From Cellulophaga algicola DSM 14237 (GTDB taxonomy: Bacteria; Bacteroidota; Bacteroidia; Flavobacteriales; Flavobacteriaceae), in NCBI RefSeq assembly GCF_000186265.1, contig NC_014934.1:4464001-4528000 (forward strand): a stretch of DNA of 64,000 bases, given 5' to 3'. Shown here in pieces: positions 2,931 to 11,100 of this stretch (its first letter is position 1; each line of letters begins with the position of its first letter). The position numbers and the translations under genes were made by a program. The notes below the pieces were generated by a model. The model ran no database searches. It was not told the origin of the DNA and saw nothing but the letters and a program-made list of their open reading frames with translations.

Positions 2931-3689
2931 TTAAATGACGGAATATTGTGTTACAAATTCATCTGTAATATCTTTAAAACTATTGGTACAGTAGACGTGG
3001 TCAATGCTTTCTTTTAACTCCTCAAAGCCATAGTTAAATTGCGCATGTGTTACGTATAAAAATACTTTTGTAGCCCCTTGAGATTTTAAGGCTTCTGCTA
3101 AGAATTTAAAGGTTCTTCCACCGTCTGCTAAATCATCTACAATCAAGCATTCTTTTCCTTTTACATCGCCTTGAATACTTATCTCAGGAGCGCCGTTTAC
3201 GCGAACTTTATTAGAAGGTACTAAATCTGCTTGCAATTTTTCAGCAATTTCATGTGTGGTCTTATAAGCCCCCGCATCTGGGCTCACCAATACCGGATTA
3301 CCTAATACCTTAAACGTTTTTTCTACAAATTGAAAATGAGAGATCATTTCACTATTCGCTATCAATGCCAGAGATATAGGACTGTGCGGATGTAAAATAG
3401 AAACTTTATCGAACTTCATGCTATTGATAAAATTAGCAATCACTTTTAAATCAAAAGATTCTGCTTTATGAAACCGTCTATCGGAACGCTGCCCAATTAA
3501 ACATAAAATGGTTAAAGTCGCAACGGCATTTTTATGCATCGCATTTTCTGCATCCCAAGCCTCTTTTACAGCAGCTATGGTAAATAAATCTTGATAACTA
3601 TTCCCTCTAATTTTAAGGTCTAAATTACCTCCTTCTGTAATTTTGGCGGTTACTTGCCCGTCATTAAATTTCTTTATGTCGTATTTCAT
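2931..3689 (-). CDS. PRPP-synthetase-like protein (short Prs or ADPR-PP synthetase)
   Basis: A 252-residue member of the ribose-phosphate pyrophosphokinase family. Residues 67-73 (QRSDRRF) match the ATP-binding stretch of Prs, VSPDAGAY at 135-142 matches the VSPDxGG segment, and IVDDLADGGRT at 183-193 is the phosphoribosyl-binding loop. It is about 60 residues shorter than housekeeping Prs (about 315), and the lysine/arginine-rich catalytic flexible loop is not obvious. It is the last gene of the NAD operon, ten bases after its neighbour. The simple reading is PRPP supply for the NAMPT-like enzyme. An alternative is the NARP1 pathway, where a Prs relative pyrophosphorylates ADP-ribose. Sequence reading cannot separate these. 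Confidence 0.82.
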   Translation of the reverse strand: MKYDIKKFNDGQVTAKITEGGNLDLKIRGNSYQDLFTIAAVKEAWDAENAMHKNAVATLTILCLIGQRSDRRFHKAESFDLKVIANFINSMKFDKVSILHPHSPISLALIANSEMISHFQFVEKTFKVLGNPVLVSPDAGAYKTTHEIAEKLQADLVPSNKVRVNGAPEISIQGDVKGKECLIVDDLADGGRTFKFLAEALKSQGATKVFLYVTHAQFNYGFEELKESIDHVYCTNSFKDITDEFVTQYSVI

Positions 3690-3699
3690 CTGTACTATT

Positions 3700-4692
3700 T
3701 TAACTATTATATTTCGCTATGGCTTTTTTTAGTTCTGTATTTGAATTACCATAACTTACTACTTGAACATCCAATGGAGTATTCTTAAACTTTTCAATAG
3801 CATTAATTAATGATTCTATGATCCAATTAATATCATTGCCAAATGCACCACCACCAACTAAGGTTAAAAAAACTTTATTTGATTTTCCTTTCTCCATGTT
3901 AATCTTCGCGGCACATAAAGATGCTTCATATGTGGCTTCTAAAATTATTCTCGCAAAATTTTCCCAATAAAAAAAATCAATTTGAGAATATGCCACAGGT
4001 AGTGCCGAACAATAAACTTGTGATACAATTTGATTTTCATCGATGAGGGTCACTTCTGTATTCCATTGTATCCCTACTTTTAACTTTCCTTTTAAACGTT
4101 CTCTTTCCGAGTTATTTAAATGACTCAATTGTTTGTTGATGGCAAGAAGTCCATTTTGATGCACTAAGGCATATCCATTTTTCATTTCCCATAAATGTAG
4201 CTGTTCATTATTCAATTCTTTCCCTATTGCATCCAAACAGTCTATTTGATTTGAGCTAGTCTGCCCTAAAGCATTTGCTATAGGTAGAAAATAATTCCGA
4301 TATATAGTCCCTGCTCCACAAGCAATAGCACAAGCTGGTCCTTGTGTAAAATCGTTTTCATAAATAGCTATCCCTTTTTCTGGAGTAACAAAAGGATCAA
4401 CCATCTCTAATAAATTAAATTGAGAAGCTGCTTGAAAAAGTGCATGGTTATTGTTTAAATCACAATGTAAGTCCTGAATATCTGCTACAATTTCTGATAT
4501 CTTTAGCGTTCCTAGAACTGCTGGTCCTTCACATTGTATTCTTAGTTCTTCTAAGGAAACAATCTCTAATGCTCCAAATTGATACGATTTACCGTTACGA
4601 GTAGAAACAAGGGTTTGTTCATCAATATGGATGTTATTTTGCACATTTTCATGTGATATTTCCTTAAAACCAGTCAATTTCTCAAACCACAT
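3700..4692 (-). CDS. Unknown NAD-operon protein, possibly macrodomain-like
   Basis: A 330-residue protein I do not firmly recognise. No signal peptide or membrane segment is visible. The C-terminal third contains a hydrophobic strand followed by GGGAFGNDINWIIESL (about residues 280-295), which resembles the GCGxFGN segment and following helix of PARG/macrodomain proteins that bind ADP-ribose. Around residue 125 there is TQGPACAIACGAGTIYRNYF, rich in glycine, alanine and cysteine. It sits between the NAMPT-like and Prs-like genes under an apparent NrtR promoter, so an ADP-ribose-related role is attractive but is inference. A new NAD-associated fold is the alternative. Confidence 0.45.
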   Translation of the reverse strand: MWFEKLTGFKEISHENVQNNIHIDEQTLVSTRNGKSYQFGALEIVSLEELRIQCEGPAVLGTLKISEIVADIQDLHCDLNNNHALFQAASQFNLLEMVDPFVTPEKGIAIYENDFTQGPACAIACGAGTIYRNYFLPIANALGQTSSNQIDCLDAIGKELNNEQLHLWEMKNGYALVHQNGLLAINKQLSHLNNSERERLKGKLKVGIQWNTEVTLIDENQIVSQVYCSALPVAYSQIDFFYWENFARIILEATYEASLCAAKINMEKGKSNKVFLTLVGGGAFGNDINWIIESLINAIEKFKNTPLDVQVVSYGNSNTELKKAIAKYNS

Positions 4693-4735
4693 ATTTTTTA
4701 AATTGAGTTTTTAATAGCCTCTCTTATTTCATTTT

Positions 4736-6190
4736 TTATAGATTCTCATTAATCCGATCTCTTATCTCTTGCAGGTTTACTTGATTCATAAATTTTCCGT
4801 CTTCATAAATTACCTGCAATGCTCCTTCGTTTTCTATTGCTGGTGTTACTTGATCTACTAAAACAAACTCACCATCAATCACATCCACTTTTATCAATCC
4901 TTTAGCTGATTTTTTAACTCCGTCATCTGTAATTGGATCTTTAAAAATTTCTCTTCGTTCACCATGTACCACTACAGAAGTAGCTTTCATTGCAAAACCA
5001 AAAGTATCTCTGGTATTAAATTGGTAGGTAAAAGAACCAATTCCTAATACCACATTAGTAGTAGCGAAACCTTTATCACTCAAACGCTGACAAATACTTT
5101 CTGCTCTTTCCGTAGTAATACTATCCCCATATATAGCACCAATATGTGCATCTAAAACTTTAAACCCTTGTGCATTTACCGTACCTCCAAAGATGTCCCA
5201 AAGGAGTTCTACCACGCCTTTATCTTTAGGGCTTTCTGCCCCAAGTGCTGCAGCTTCTCCGCAGATAATGTCTACAGGGTCTCCACTATCTGGTCTAATC
5301 ACCAATTTACCATCTCTTGCTAGAACTTCTTCTTTTAACTGCGGTAAATACTCGGTAAGTACTTTCCATAAATCCCACGTATCACTTACTACAGATAATA
5401 TTCCCGTTGGGTAGGTATTCATTAAGGCTCTAAACGTTCCTATTTCATCGTCTTTTGTTCCTGCACACATTACGGAGTGCTCTGTAGCATTAACAGAACC
5501 TACAACAAAGCCTTTGGCATGGTAATAATTGCGAAGTGTACTTATTACAGGCAAGGTATCTGATCCCAAAAATACTGCTGCGTGCCCCATACCTGAAGAA
5601 ACTGCACTTTGCAAGCCTCCCATTCCACGCATAGAAAAATCATGCCCTTGAAAATCTATAAAGCCTAAATTTTCTTTATCGGTGGCTAAAGTCCATTTTT
5701 TGAAAATTCTTTTATAACATAAGGCAATAGATGCAGAGGTCATTGGTTGCCATAACATGGTAGATAAAATAGTTTCTAAAAAGTTCGTAATCCAATAAAA
5801 CTTTTTATCTGTATTTACCACCGTTACCATAGGCACTCTAATAGGAACCTCTAGTCCTTCTGGCAACGATTTAGCCCTGATAGGCAAATATTGCAAATCA
5901 TGTAGTTCTTCATAATGCGTCACATCATAATCGGTTCCCAAATACAAAGACAGCTCCTCTTTTAACTCATTACATACTTGCGCTTTTGGTTTAGAAAAGA
6001 AATTATCCTGAAAATAGTCATGCAACCATTGAAATACATATTGCTGGCCAAAAGAAACTACTTTATCGCAGCCTTTAGGTGCATATTTATTGCTTCTAGG
6101 CGTCCAATTGGAATATACTTCTTCTGTTCCTTTTGGGTATTGTTGGTGGTGTCCTGTTTTGTATCCGTCTGTTAAAAATAATCCGTTCAT
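4736..6190 (-). CDS. nadV: Nicotinamide phosphoribosyltransferase (NAMPT/NadV family)
   Basis: A 484-residue NAMPT family enzyme, which normally makes NMN from nicotinamide and PRPP in the cytoplasm. Conserved active-site blocks are visible: DFSMRG at 184-189, GSD at 209-211 (equivalent of the Asp that selects nicotinamide), ATEHS with His238 (the phosphorylated histidine of human NAMPT, His247), and IRPDSGDP with Arg299 and Asp301. The length is normal for bacterial NadV and slightly shorter than the animal enzyme. Its start is 11 bases after the upstream gene. Because its partner is a short Prs-like protein, it could instead be a Namat that joins nicotinamide to ADP-ribose pyrophosphate. 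The family call is firm; substrate choice is not. Confidence 0.92.
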   Translation of the reverse strand: MNGLFLTDGYKTGHHQQYPKGTEEVYSNWTPRSNKYAPKGCDKVVSFGQQYVFQWLHDYFQDNFFSKPKAQVCNELKEELSLYLGTDYDVTHYEELHDLQYLPIRAKSLPEGLEVPIRVPMVTVVNTDKKFYWITNFLETILSTMLWQPMTSASIALCYKRIFKKWTLATDKENLGFIDFQGHDFSMRGMGGLQSAVSSGMGHAAVFLGSDTLPVISTLRNYYHAKGFVVGSVNATEHSVMCAGTKDDEIGTFRALMNTYPTGILSVVSDTWDLWKVLTEYLPQLKEEVLARDGKLVIRPDSGDPVDIICGEAAALGAESPKDKGVVELLWDIFGGTVNAQGFKVLDAHIGAIYGDSITTERAESICQRLSDKGFATTNVVLGIGSFTYQFNTRDTFGFAMKATSVVVHGERREIFKDPITDDGVKKSAKGLIKVDVIDGEFVLVDQVTPAIENEGALQVIYEDGKFMNQVNLQEIRDRINENL

Positions 6191-6201
6191 GTTATGTTAT
6201 T

Positions 6202-6633
6202 TTAAGTTAGTGTGTCTATTGCCTCTTGGAGTGTCTTAAAAGTTGGTGTGTGATACCTTTCGCACAAGGTAACCACATAACTACTTTTATAAAACGCTTT
6301 AGGACAGACTACATATAATTTTTTAAAACTTGCATACAAGCCCAATTCTACTAAAGATATGGGCGATAATGCGTTGGGAAGGAAATTAAGAAGTACGATA
6401 TCTGCCATGGCCATAGCGTCTAACTCCCACTCCACATGTTTTTTCATTTGTAATGCATTTAAAGTATCATGATGCTCATTCGTAGGATCTAAAAACTGAT
6501 AGGAATTAGGTAAGCTTTTAACCACTTGAGTTCTCCAATTTACTGATTGATTAGGCGCCATACTTCCTGCTAAGAAAATATAACGTTGGTCTGTTTCTTT
6601 TATTGGAAGTTCTGCTTGCGATGTGAATACCAT
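6202..6633 (-). CDS. Nucleoside 2-deoxyribosyltransferase-like protein
   Basis: A 143-residue protein with the layout of the nucleoside 2-deoxyribosyltransferase-like family (Nuc_deoxyri_tr2 type): an early strand ending in IFLAGSM, then a tryptophan-arginine pair, FLDPTNE, and MADIVLLNFLP followed by SPISLVELGLYA, which holds the glutamate expected in the active site. Such proteins act on N-glycosidic bonds of nucleosides or nucleotides. As first gene after the operator-bearing promoter in an NAD operon, it might process nicotinamide riboside, NMN or related nucleosides; this is inference. ATG 6633 lies about 20 bases after the predicted transcript start. Confidence 0.75.
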   Translation of the reverse strand: MVFTSQAELPIKETDQRYIFLAGSMAPNQSVNWRTQVVKSLPNSYQFLDPTNEHHDTLNALQMKKHVEWELDAMAMADIVLLNFLPNALSPISLVELGLYASFKKLYVVCPKAFYKSSYVVTLCERYHTPTFKTLQEAIDTLT

Positions 6634-6641
6634 AATTTTTA

Positions 6642-6716
6642 TTTGCGTAATTATGACACAAATATAAAATGCTTTTACAGAATCTGCAACTTTTATTTGT
6701 GTTATTTTTACACAAA
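6642..6716 (-). promoter_or_regulatory. NAD operon promoter with two NrtR-type operators
   Basis: Two 21-bp inverted repeats of the form TTTGyGT-N7-ACACAAA lie at 6642-6662 and 6696-6716, centres 54 bp apart (about five helical turns). On the minus strand a perfect -7 element TATATTTG occupies 6666-6659 and a TTG -33 element 6689-6687, with 20 bases between them. The downstream repeat covers the -7 and start region; the other lies just upstream of -33. This suits looping or cooperative repression by the NrtR-like protein encoded upstream. Assignment of the regulator is by proximity. Confidence 0.72.
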
Positions 6717-6731
6717 CTAATTTTTTGTCCT

Positions 6732-7406
6732 TTAAATTTCGAAAATTATACCTTCCTTCTTGAGTTTAAAGTAACGTTTGTTATTGAACTTAAACAAGTT
6801 AGCAGGTCTTCCTGAACCCTTAGAAACTTTTTCATCAAGTTCATCTAAAATATTAAGACTTAACATTTTCTTTCTAAAATTACGTCGATCAATAGCTCTT
6901 CCTAAAAGCGTTGTATATAGTTTTTCTAAATCAGAGAAGGGAAATTTAGTATCTAATAATTCAAACCCAATAGGCTCATAAGTAATTTTTCCTTGCAACC
7001 GCGTTATAGCCATTTGCAGTATTGCTTCATGATCAAAAAACAAACTTGGTAATTCTGTTATATTAAACCACTGAACTTCTTCCGCATCGGTAGCCGCTAA
7101 AATTTTAAAAGCACTGGGTTTAATTAAACCAAAATAAGCTACAGACACTACCCTACTTCTTGGATCTCTTTTTGGATGACCAAATGTATACAGTTGTTCT
7201 AGGTAATTTATAGCGATACCTGTTTCTTCTTTAAGTTCTCTTGCTACAGCTTCTTCTAAGGATTCCTCTTCTAAAACAAAACCTCCTGGAATTGCCCATT
7301 GTCCCTTAAATGGTTCATATTTTCTTTTGATAAGTAATACAGATATGGTTCCAGATTCATAGCCAAAAACTACGGCATCTACAGAAAGTTGAATTGATTG
7401 GTGCAT
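6732..7406 (-). CDS. nrtR: NrtR-type Nudix transcriptional regulator
   Basis: A Nudix domain fused to a C-terminal winged helix, the layout of NrtR, repressor of NAD synthesis and salvage genes that responds to ADP-ribose in characterised members. The full Nudix signature is present at residues 42-64 (Gly42, Glu48, Arg56-Glu57, Glu60-Glu61, Gly63). Many NrtR proteins have lost catalytic residues, so this one may also hydrolyse its ligand. The winged-helix part, about 145-224, contains GRAIDRRNFRKK. I start at ATG 7406 because the family begins just before LSVDAVVFGY; ATGs upstream to 7448 add 14 unlikely residues. It lies directly upstream of the NAD genes and their paired operators. A sugar-type NrtR relative (AraR-like) is the alternative, but context favours NAD. 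Confidence 0.87.
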   Translation of the reverse strand: MHQSIQLSVDAVVFGYESGTISVLLIKRKYEPFKGQWAIPGGFVLEEESLEEAVARELKEETGIAINYLEQLYTFGHPKRDPRSRVVSVAYFGLIKPSAFKILAATDAEEVQWFNITELPSLFFDHEAILQMAITRLQGKITYEPIGFELLDTKFPFSDLEKLYTTLLGRAIDRRNFRKKMLSLNILDELDEKVSKGSGRPANLFKFNNKRYFKLKKEGIIFEI

Positions 7407-7572
7407 CTTATGCGTATTTAGTACGCTAATATATAACATAATTAGCAAGTTTTTATCCTAAGAAGAAATACCTAGCATACTCCCCTACTAATAAGTCTAC
7501 CTCTTATTTAAAAAATAGCTACCTCAATTTCTTTAATTAACATAATTTTAAATAGTTAACAAAAATAATTCC

Positions 7573-7580
7573 TAAATTTG
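7573..7580 (+). promoter_or_regulatory. Copper operon promoter -7 element
   Basis: TAAATTTG is a perfect match to TAnnTTTG. It lies nine bases before ATG 7590, so the leader is very short. A clear TTG -33 element is lacking; GTTAAC at 7555-7560 is the nearest candidate, which may mean activator dependence. Confidence 0.6.
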
Positions 7581-7589
7581 CATTTAATT

Positions 7590-8003
7590 ATGAAGCAATC
7601 ATCCCATAAAATAGTGTCCCTATTAATGGCTATTGTAGTGTTATTCGCTACAATGTCGTTTACGGTGAACATGCATTATTGTGGTGATACTTTAGTAGAA
7701 ACTGCATTATTTCACAAAGCAAAAGGTTGCGGAATGGAAATGCAAAAACCTGTAACCGAAGATTGTTCCATCACAAAAAAGAATTGTTGTAATGACAAGC
7801 AATCGGTCGTTGATGGTCAAGATGAATTACAATTACAAATTGACCAAGTTTCTTTTGAGCAATTCGTATTCATTGCTTCTTTTGTTTACAGCTACCTAGA
7901 TCTATTTGAAGGACTAGAAGAAAAAGCACCTTCATATGAAAGGTATGCACCACCACTCGTCACCAAGCAAATCTTTAAGCTTGACGAGACGTATTTAATT
8001 TGA
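7590..8003 (+). CDS. HYC_CC_PP family protein, copper operon
   Basis: A 137-residue exported or membrane-anchored protein. A hydrophobic N-terminal segment (8-26) is followed by the three hallmarks of the family: HYC at 29-31, CC at 66-67 and PP at 121-122. Additional cysteines at 31, 47 and 59 could bind metal or form disulfides. The family has no established biochemical function, but it recurs beside copper/heavy-metal efflux genes, as here, where it is first in the operon. ATG 7590 is preferred to the in-frame TTG at 7578, which lies in the -7 element. Confidence 0.82.
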   Translation: MKQSSHKIVSLLMAIVVLFATMSFTVNMHYCGDTLVETALFHKAKGCGMEMQKPVTEDCSITKKNCCNDKQSVVDGQDELQLQIDQVSFEQFVFIASFVYSYLDLFEGLEEKAPSYERYAPPLVTKQIFKLDETYLI

Positions 8004-8119: not shown

Positions 8120-11100
8120 ATGCTAAATAGAAGCATCAAATTCTTAATTGAGAATAAACTCGTAGCCGTTTTATTACTTGTCCTTTTTATTGGATGGGGA
8201 ACTGTAAATGCACCATTTAATTGGGATACTGGATTTTTACCTAGTAACCCTGTAGCGGTAGATGCTATTCCTGATATTGGTGAAAACCAACAAATTGTAT
8301 TCACAAAATGGGATGGTCGTTCTCCTCAAGATATCGAAGACCAAATTACGTATCCTTTAACCACTTCTTTACTCGGTATTCCCGGAGTAAAAACCATTCG
8401 TAGTTCGTCTATGTTTGGGTTTTCAAGTATCTATATCATTTTTGAAGAAGATATTGAGTTTTACTGGAGCCGAAGTCGCATTTTAGAAAAACTAAATTCG
8501 CTACCAAACGGATTATTACCAGAAGGCGTTAACCCTGCTTTAGGGCCAGATGCAACAGGATTAGGTCAGGTTTATTGGTACACTCTAGAAGGTAGAGATA
8601 AAGACGGAAACGTTACTGGCGGTTGGGATTTACAAGAATTACGAAGCATACAAGATTATTATGTAAAGTATGCATTATCGTCTGCAAGCGGAGTTTCTGA
8701 AGTGGCTTCTATTGGTGGTTATGTTCAAGAATACCAGATAGATGTGAACCCAGAATTGATGCGGCAATACAAAATTGGTTTAAATCAAGTTGTAAAAGCA
8801 GTTAAAAGTAGCAATCAAGATATAGGTGCACAAACTTTAGAAATTAATCAAGCAGAGTATTTAGTCCGTGGTTTAGGGTATATAAAATCGGTTGAAGATA
8901 TTGAAAATGCCGTAGTAACTTCCGAAGGTTATACCGCTATTAAAATTAAAGATATTGCTAAAGTATCCTTAGGCCCTGCAGCACGACGTGGTTTATTAGA
9001 TAAAGAAGGTGCAGAAGTTGTTGGCGGAGTTGTGGTTGCTAGATATGGTGCAAACCCAATGGAAGTTATCACCAACGTAAAAGCTAAAATAGCAGAACTA
9101 AAAGACGGTTTACCTACTAAGGTATTAGCAGACGGACGGACATCACAACTAACTGTCATCCCTTTCTACGATCGTTCTGAACTTATTGTAGAAACTTTAG
9201 ATACGCTTAGTGAAGCATTAACTTTAGAGATATTAATTACCATTTTGGTGATTATTGTAATGGTCTTTAACCTAAGAGCATCCCTTTTAATTTCTGGCTT
9301 GTTACCTGTTGCTATTTTAATGGTTTTTGTGGCGATGAAACTATTTAATGTTGATGCTAATATTGTTGCCCTTTCAGGTATTGCAATTGCCATAGGAACC
9401 ATGGTAGATGTTGGTGTCATACTTGCCGAAAATATGATTCGTCATCTCGATGATGAAAAACTAAGAACTCGTGAGAATGGAACAACATTAACTATAAATG
9501 AAGTAGTTTACAATGCTACTTCGGAAGTTTCCGGAGCTATTTTAACAGCTGTTTTAACAACTATTATCAGTTTTGTACCCGTATTTACAATGGTTGGCGC
9601 AGAAGGTAAATTGTTTAGACCTTTGGCTTTTACAAAAACAATGGCGTTATCCGCGTCTTTAGTGATTGCTTTGTTTATAATTCCGCCTTTAGCAGCTTTT
9701 TTATTCCGTAAAACAACATTTAAAAACTCATTTAAATACATTGTAAGTGGTGCTTTAATCCTTGCCGGAATTGCAATTGTGATAAGTGATAACTGGTTGG
9801 GAATTATTTTAATTGCTTTCGGAGTTTTATCATTTTGGAGTTTATATTTTAATAAATCTGAAATAAATTTTTCGCTTTTTAATTTTCCCTTTTCACTTTC
9901 AAAAAACCTTATAAATATTATTATTTCTTCAGCAGCCATTGTATTTCTATTGGCCGAATATTGGAGACCCTTAGGTTTTAACCGTAGTATTTTTATCAAC
10001 TTAATTTTTGTTGCTATTATTTGCTTCGGAATTTTAGGACTGTTCTCTATTTTTAGAAAATATTACGGACAAATTTTACAATGGGCTTTAGCGAATAAAT
10101 TATTGTTTTTAATGATTCCTGCAGCTGTTCTTATTTCTGGAGTTTGGATTATGAACAACACTGGAAAAGAATTTATGCCCTCCTTAAATGAAGGTTCTTT
10201 TCTACTCATGCCTACTTCGCTACCGCATGCTGGAGTCGAAGAAAACAAACGTGTGTTACAGCAATTGGATATGGCAGTTGCTACCATTCCTGAAATTGAA
10301 ACTGTGGTTGGAAAATCTGGTAGAACAGCATCTGCTTTAGACCCTGCTCCTTTATCGATGTACGAAAACATGATTCAGTATAAACCGGAATACATGCGTA
10401 ATTCCGAAGGTAAAAGACAACGCTATAAAGTAAATGAGGATGGCTTATTTACATTGAAAAACGGACAATTGGCGACTGACGGTAGTGAAAGACTAAATAG
10501 AATGTCAGGTCGAGTATCACGAGGTACGAGTGCTATATCTAGACCCTATACTTCTCGATACAATTCTGAAGAAAAATCAGAATCACTCGAAGTGACAACC
10601 ACAGTTTCAAATTCCCTACTAATAGAAGATGAAGATGGAGAGTTCTACCGTAACTGGCGACCAGAAATACAATCACCAGATGATATTTGGAAAGAAATTA
10701 TAAAAGTCACCAAGTTACCAGGTGTTACATCTGCTCCCAAATTACAGCCTATAGAAACCAGGTTGGTCATGCTACAAACAGGTATGCGAGCACCTATGGG
10801 AATTAAAGTAAAAGGGCAAGATTTAAAGCAAATTGAAGCTTTTGGACTAGAACTAGAAAGTCTTTTAAAACAAGCAAAAGGTGTTAAAGTAGAAGCTGTT
10901 TTTGCCGATAGAATTGTGGGTAAACCGTATTTGCTAATTGATATTGATAGAGAAAAAATAGCACGATATGGAATTTCTATAGAAGATGTTCAAAGTGTGC
11001 TAAAAGTTGCTATTGGTGGTATGGCTTTAACGCAAACTGTGGAAGGCCGAGAACGTTACGGAGTTCGTGTACGTTACCCAAGAGAATTACGTGGCAACCC

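Follow-up and report, generated by a model that had tools for sequence, protein, structure and literature searches.

A probable NARP1 operon with its own regulator gene on the chromosome of Cellulophaga algicola

Five genes at 2931-7406 in a 64,000-nt stretch of the Cellulophaga algicola DSM 14237 chromosome (NC_014934.1; the entire stretch is the window below) probably make up a chromosomal, regulated NARP1 operon. Judged by the families of its enzymes, the operon very probably turns ADP-ribose, the chief remnant of NAD+ breakdown, straight back into NAD+. An earlier reading of the letters alone (the original prediction) had proposed such a NARP1-like function, which is now supported by a Namat signature and by the placement of two proteins in Namat and Adps trees. 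Bacterial NARP1 itself is already published, and the window operon is a regulated variant of it. Newly described here are an operator pair at the promoter, an exchangeable hydrolase slot and, across loci, the occurrence of ADP-ribose hydrolase genes together with a contrast in NadM-like genes.

All five open reading frames (ORFs) of the proposed unit were found where they had been placed, each on the minus strand. In transcription order they run from the regulator through D, C and B to A, with gaps of 98, 11, 43 and 10 bases. The architecture is a single regulator gene followed by a tight four-gene operon, D-C-B-A.

6732..7406, minus strand: NrtR-family regulator, Nudix plus winged helix (Pfam), 224 aa when begun at the ATG (the ORF list starts it at a TTG, 7448)
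6202..6633, minus strand: gene D, nucleoside 2-deoxyribosyltransferase-like (NDT-like; PF15891, 73.8 bits), 143 aa
4736..6190, minus strand: gene C, Namat-type nicotinamide ADP-ribose transferase by signature, tree and PDB matches, 484 aa
3700..4692, minus strand: gene B, predicted macrodomain/PARG-like fold (AlphaFold2 (AF2), Foldseek, slot swap), no Pfam family, 330 aa
2931..3689, minus strand: gene A, Adps-type ADP-ribose pyrophosphokinase by tree, motifs and AF2/Foldseek, a Prs relative, 252 aa

Pfam assigns NUDIX and NrtR_WHD (PF21906) to the regulator, PF15891 to D, PF04095 (NAPRTase) with PF18127 (NAMPT_N) to C, and PF00156/PF14572 (Pribosyltran/Pribosyl_synth) to A; B has no family above cut-off. 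The Nudix-winged-helix regulator, the deoxyribosyltransferase-like protein and the NAMPT family enzyme that had been named from the letters are thereby confirmed. In PADLOC the regulator scores 41 bits to PDC-S07, a Nudix-type match, A and D score at most 21 bits, and B and C match nothing.

Family membership of C and A

Namats are defined by a signature, GSX-phi-X-phi-X-phi-TRD, whose positions 3 and 7 are aromatic, and by a clamp-loop rule in which the SCL stacking residue is either Arg or a Lys/Tyr whose following residue stacks (PMC12774641). C carries the SCH signature as GSFTYQFNTRD (residues 385-395). In its clamp loop K35 stands at the place of R40 and is followed by Y36, in agreement with the SCL rule. 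A comparison of 38 NAMPT-family proteins finds the Namat form in 28, and the other 10 read GG-x-LLQ. A 50-protein tree separates 40 Namat-motif rows, including C, from 10 NAMPT rows at 100% in the Shimodaira-Hasegawa-like approximate likelihood ratio test (SH-aLRT). In the PDB, C scores highest to 9w5x and 9w5w, at 520 bits, and to 9ke8, at 469 bits; 7yqo follows at 224 bits and human NAMPT, for example 6e68, at 203 bits. All 20 residue numbers named for the Namat of phage SPbetaL1 in PMC12774641 fit 9w5x, and we therefore take this chain to be that protein. Seventeen of 20 NAD+-contact residues in 9w5x are identical in C, the differences being R40K, A362S and Y396F. C also scores 628 bits to the phage nicotinamide phosphoribosyl transferase family of PHROGs. 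By family membership, C is a Namat.

The same holds for A, which by family membership is an Adps. A 48-protein tree splits 37 Adps rows, including A, from 11 Prs rows, again at 100% SH-aLRT; the Prs rows are the 10 of 17 housekeeping Prs loci that passed a motif filter, plus locus L078. Neither A nor C thus clusters with housekeeping families, the tree check on which the NARP1-like reading had been staked. The motifs DDLADGGRTF, PHSPIS and SPDAGAYK of A resemble, by eye, those of many other Adps, although some Adps rows lack one mark or another; their housekeeping Prs counterparts are DDMVDTAGT, HADQIQGFF and SPDMGGSK. The AF2 model of A has a predicted local distance difference test score (pLDDT) of 87.4, with residues 68-75 under 50, and matches E. 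coli PRPP (phosphoribosyl pyrophosphate) synthetase in Foldseek at E 1.7e-18 and a template modelling (TM) score by query of 0.85. In PHROGs, A scores 187 bits against a ribose-phosphate pyrophosphokinase family of phages.

A had been described as a short Prs relative without an evident catalytic loop. The shortness stands, with about 28 N-terminal residues missing relative to E. coli Prs (HMMER), but the loop residues are kept. K161 and R163 are invariant across 29 Adps sequences and pair, in a MAFFT alignment, with the K-x-R of the housekeeping Prs of the same genome; the HMMER alignment to E. coli Prs puts the gap elsewhere and leaves the lysines unpaired. By MAFFT the loop is about 2 residues shorter than in the Prs of this genome, and the AF2 model predicts a beta-hairpin at residues 156-172. 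Besides this housekeeping Prs, the C. algicola genome (4.89 Mb) has a match to TIGR00482, which we take to be NadD. The operon is therefore not the cell's sole NAD or PRPP route.

Regulator and operators across Namat loci

We surveyed the neighbourhoods of 32 bacterial Namat loci, the window and 31 others. Accessory genes were profile-checked on one or a few examples each and identified elsewhere by BLAST to those examples. Adps was seen in 29 of the 32 and the regulator gene in 27 (the window and 26 of the 31 others), with none in the DNA examined around the Namat of the rest. In the window, the space between the regulator gene and the operon holds two operators 54 bp apart that overlap a predicted promoter.

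6696..6716, no strand: distal operator TTTGTGT-N7-ACACAAA, exact site
6687..6689, minus strand: predicted TTG promoter element, 20-base spacer (TTG at 17-23 bases in 22 of 29 operator pairs)
6659..6666, minus strand: predicted -7 promoter element TATATTTG, sharing 4 bases with the proximal operator
6642..6662, no strand: proximal operator TTTGTGT-N7-ACGCAAA as read on the minus strand, exact site
7409..7429, no strand: weak third operator-like palindrome just before the regulator ATG, two mismatches

The 6642-6662 and 6696-6716 sites are the only exact matches to TTTGYGT-N7-ACRCAAA in the whole genome, where 0.14 are expected by composition. At up to two mismatches the pattern occurs 105 times per strand and its reversed control 114 times, so only exact or paired sites were used. 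With a pair defined by at most one mismatch per box, 33 loci were examined (the 32 Namat loci and L142, described below) and 29 have a pair 51-54 bp apart, namely 28 Namat loci and L142. Those without a pair at one mismatch are L062 and L068, which have no regulator gene in the DNA around, L063 with two single sites, and L070 with one exact site. TAnn precedes all 29 proximal boxes (as TAnnTTTG, the last four letters within the allowed mismatch) against 8 of the 29 distal ones; the operator-bearing loci are related, and these counts are not independent. TAnnTTTG is the sigma-A -7 consensus of a flavobacterium (PMC9723704), and a repressor bound at the proximal box would lie over the promoter. 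The conserved operators back the link between regulator and operon. The palindrome at 7409-7429 suggests possible autoregulation of the regulator. Palindromes near the regulator start occur also in L029, L031 and L032, and one-mismatch palindromes in L033, L063, L073 and L135-L141.

The genome contains four one-mismatch operator sites, two of which are the pair of L142 (C1:2107949 and 2108001, one mismatch each). L142 (C1:2100000-2116000; locus 4755-7703, minus strand) is a second operon with an operator pair. It encodes a 111-aa unknown protein, a DxTGS-motif protein with no Pfam match that is presumably vWA-like, and an adenylosuccinate-synthetase-like protein. Of the 31 Namat loci besides the window, 7 (L061, L062, L068, L069, L070, L072 and L140) contain these three genes within their Namat cluster.

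Gene B and an exchangeable slot

The original prediction had noted a macrodomain-like segment in the unknown gene, which was right but understated. The AF2 model of B (pLDDT 93.3) gives the entire protein a predicted PARG/macrodomain-like fold. Foldseek aligns it with bacterial PARG at E from 4e-6 (TM 0.40-0.46 by query, 0.49-0.55 by target) and with the E. coli YmdB macrodomain at TM 0.65-0.68 by target. It also matches giant-virus proteins at 30-32% identity and TM 0.85-0.90 by query. One of the matching models, BFVD entry A0A2H4UUF0 of Bodo saltans virus (TM by query 0.85, 30% identity), is named RING-finger. By sequence, neither a profile search of the PDB nor hhalign against two macrodomains yielded a usable match for B.

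In a sister species (L132) an ADP-ribosylglycohydrolase (ARG) gene takes the place of window positions 3695-4734, all of B; the site on the chromosome is the same, the DNA of its two flanks being 86-87% identical. Elsewhere the slot holds the same glycohydrolase kind (L130), a second kind (L131), B (L133) or nothing (L134). The C. algicola genome has no PF03747, PF01661 or PF10021 match and hence no ARG core; lacking the first two, it may have B as its only such enzyme.

Relatives of B were found in 21 genome loci, 5 of them within NARP1 operons. The other 16 have no Adps or Namat match in the flanking DNA searched, some flanks being short, and none of 7 viral-contig loci with B relatives has one. 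Near one relative, in a metagenome-assembled genome (MAG) of Acidobacteria, lies an ORF that looks RES-domain-like by eye (L036, about 9480-9932). A phage origin of B was considered and rejected, with no match in 50,697 phage records.

At least one gene for handling ADP-ribose (ARG, NADAR, macro, DarG-like macro or B) is present in 22 of the 32 Namat loci; the DarG-like macro scores below its profile cut-offs. Related Flavobacteriaceae (L060-L072) have longer same-strand clusters in which NADAR, KptA, macro, ARG and calcineurin-like genes separate Adps from Namat. Pseudomonas phage MAG1 carries an annotated macro domain gene two genes after Namat (L058, 4871-5350).

A NadM-like gene is found in none of the 32 Namat loci (in the window, among its own five proteins) and in 4 of 6 ordinary NAMPT loci, L027 and L028 being outside the count. 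Its absence at Namat loci is what would be expected if NAD+ is made directly. The NadM-like proteins resemble NCBI models of bifunctional nicotinamide mononucleotide (NMN) adenylyltransferase/Nudix proteins, below NCBIfam cut-offs. In L078 a Prs-clade relative (6406-7338) follows NrtR, a NadM-like gene and NAMPT; it may truly supply PRPP, which would make this locus an example of the plain alternative named in the original prediction.

The remaining gene, D, scores 68 bits to PDB 4mcj, an uncharacterised protein, and has matches in 42 phage records. It is presumed to be a glycosidase of some NAD/ADP-ribose derivative.

Proposed circuit and competing explanations

What the sequences show directly is to which families A and C belong, that the operators are there, that the slot is exchanged and that the genes occur together. 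From these features we propose the following activities, repression, effector and roles for B and D. In the resting cell the NrtR-family repressor would occupy both operators, the proximal one over the -7 element. When ADP-ribose builds up it would bind the Nudix domain, the repressor would leave, and D-C-B-A would be made. B, or the ADP-ribosylglycohydrolases in sister species, would free ADP-ribose from adducts. A would then use ATP to put pyrophosphate on ADP-ribose (step 1), and C would join the product to nicotinamide, yielding NAD+ (step 2). D would probably act on another NAD/ADP-ribose derivative, cleaving or rearranging it.

The nearest experimental precedent found is from a phage. 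In RyDEP-NARP1 of phage DyoEdafos a NARP1 neighbour makes ADP-ribose, which Adps and Namat convert to NAD+ (PMC13232231). That system shares with ours a NARP1 next to an enzyme linked to free ADP-ribose; RyDEP is a RyR-domain glycosidase for 2'/3' cyclic ADP-ribose, whereas the window encodes B, with its predicted macrodomain fold, and the NDT-like D. With NARP1 of phages SPbetaL1 and Bas63 the window operon has in common the Namat signature, the clamp, the NAD+-contact residues, the Adps motifs and the single operon. It differs in being chromosomal, in having its own regulator gene and operators, in placing Adps last with a shorter loop and N-terminus, and in the extra genes B and D. A bacterial Adps-Namat pair is known from Paenibacillus foliorum, where its activity was shown; the text sections consulted, figures apart, mention no regulator or ADP-ribose-releasing partner, unlike the window operon (PMC12774641). 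The Bacteroidota loci with NrtR, NadM-like and NAMPT genes (L075-L078) share an NrtR-family regulator and a NAMPT-family enzyme with the window, but have the ordinary NAMPT signature, a NadM-like gene and no Adps (in L078, the Prs-clade relative). In the literature found, Namat is never joined with NrtR, the original NARP1 paper, the NrtR papers PMC2330246 and PMC2896262, gkn046 and the survey PMC11724313 lying outside its coverage. From 2023 on, no work was found joining ADP-ribose, NrtR and anti-phage function.

Several points weigh against the proposed circuit, some of them on the proteins themselves and others alongside the rival explanations that they favour. The window-type Adps are far diverged, on a stem branch of 2.43 changes per column in the tree, and have no D--TG segment, which is present in most other Adps loops. 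The structural superpositions of B are loose, with a root mean square deviation of 6.5-11 for the PARG rows. PF10021 and PF01661 match none of 20 B-family members at E 1 (18 of the 21 genome loci, three partial ones being left out, plus L004 and the window), and by eye the consensus of this alignment shows no clear PARG QEE motif. B is for these reasons not classed as a PARG.

ADP-ribose is inferred as the effector from context, and there is some chance, though a minor one, that the regulator senses another ligand, such as NAD+, a pentose or an ADP-ribose phosphate. The regulator scores 83 bits to PF21906, 78 to NUDIX and 69 to AraR_C, and 154 to NCBIfam NF050029, below its cut-off of 400. Its nearest PDB relative is the arabinose-responsive BtAraR (176 bits), ahead of 3gz5 (117 bits), which we take to be the NrtR of Shewanella. 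Its Nudix box, GX5EX7REUXEEXG, is intact. NrtR relatives are known to sense arabinose or, in Corynebacterium, NAD, and NAD-type NrtRs are reported with an impaired Nudix box (PMC4666351). With its box intact, the protein is termed an NrtR-family regulator only, and it might also consume ADP-ribose. Against another ligand, the regulator gene in 27 and the operator pairs in 28 of the 32 Namat loci tie it to NAD/ADP-ribose genes.

A rather unlikely alternative is that the operon serves primarily to reverse ADP-ribosylation, with B, D or glycohydrolases undoing modification by phages or competitors and NARP1 only disposing of the product. ARG-centred host systems with a Nudix-winged-helix regulator over ADP-ribose-handling enzymes are known (PMC9503650 section 3.8), and they share this arrangement with the window. 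Neither Adps nor a relative of NAMPT is mentioned in section 3.8, and the window has B and no ARG. The clustering of ARG, NADAR, macro, KptA and phosphatase genes around Namat, and B as perhaps the sole such enzyme of its genome, also speak for reversal. The constant genes are nevertheless Adps and Namat, while the hydrolases vary. In ten of the 32 Namat loci (L063, L073 and L134-L141) none of the ADP-ribose-releasing hydrolases sought is present. This counts against the proposed circuit as well as against reversal, for which the eight loci L134-L141 are the telling ones; except for L140, these have only NrtR, Adps and Namat. A further point against the proposed circuit is L075, which combines ARG with an ordinary NAMPT, so that the ARG link is not unique to Namat.

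The operon could instead be a domesticated phage anti-defence module that shields the cell from its own NADase defences, which we consider improbable. Phage NARP1 counters NADase defences (PMC12774641), and in the tree phage Namats branch among the bacterial ones, between two Namat clades that both occur within one genus. Yet the operon has a regulator with conserved operators, and four flanking proteins scanned with Pfam show no phage family. In the genus, 13 of 18 genomes have a NAMPT-family match (6 at 89% or above, our genome counted, and 7 at 58-59%) and carry Namat; across a phylum sample, 23 of 296 genomes have a NAMPT-family match, 15 of them at 55% identity or above, again counting our own. 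The genome also has no TIR_2 or SIR2_2 match, other NADase families not having been sought. This weakens phage defence as the source of ADP-ribose, which may rather stem from ADP-ribosylation turnover, sirtuin products or those other NADase families.

Ordinary nicotinamide salvage, in which A makes PRPP from ribose 5-phosphate, C makes NMN and a NadD-type adenylyltransferase completes NAD+, fits the Prs fold and loop K and R of A, the formation of NMN from PRPP by Namat in vitro (PMC12774641; also a point against the proposed circuit) and the TIGR00482 match, but is very improbable given the Namat signature and clade of C, the position of A outside the Prs clade, the housekeeping Prs already in the genome and the Namat loci without a NadM-like gene.

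For the chromosomal, regulated NARP1 operon, the likely on-switch and the exchangeable gene that may release ADP-ribose suggest that bacteria, too, put to regulated use a pathway discovered first in viruses. A broader reading, on which we are evenly divided, is that NARP1 arose as, or today serves as, a general bacterial circuit for recycling ADP-ribose. In such a circuit ADP-ribose would induce its own conversion, and the feeder slot would set which adducts are recovered, through macrodomain-fold B, two ADP-ribosylglycohydrolase kinds or, in the longer clusters, NADAR, macro and KptA. B would then be a new family of ADP-ribosyl hydrolases, one that spans several bacterial phyla and giant viruses. 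The B family, without a Pfam profile match, gains a first activity to test for. The linked regulator gene, the defined operator and the slot for ADP-ribose release make the question of a bacterial role for NARP1 testable.

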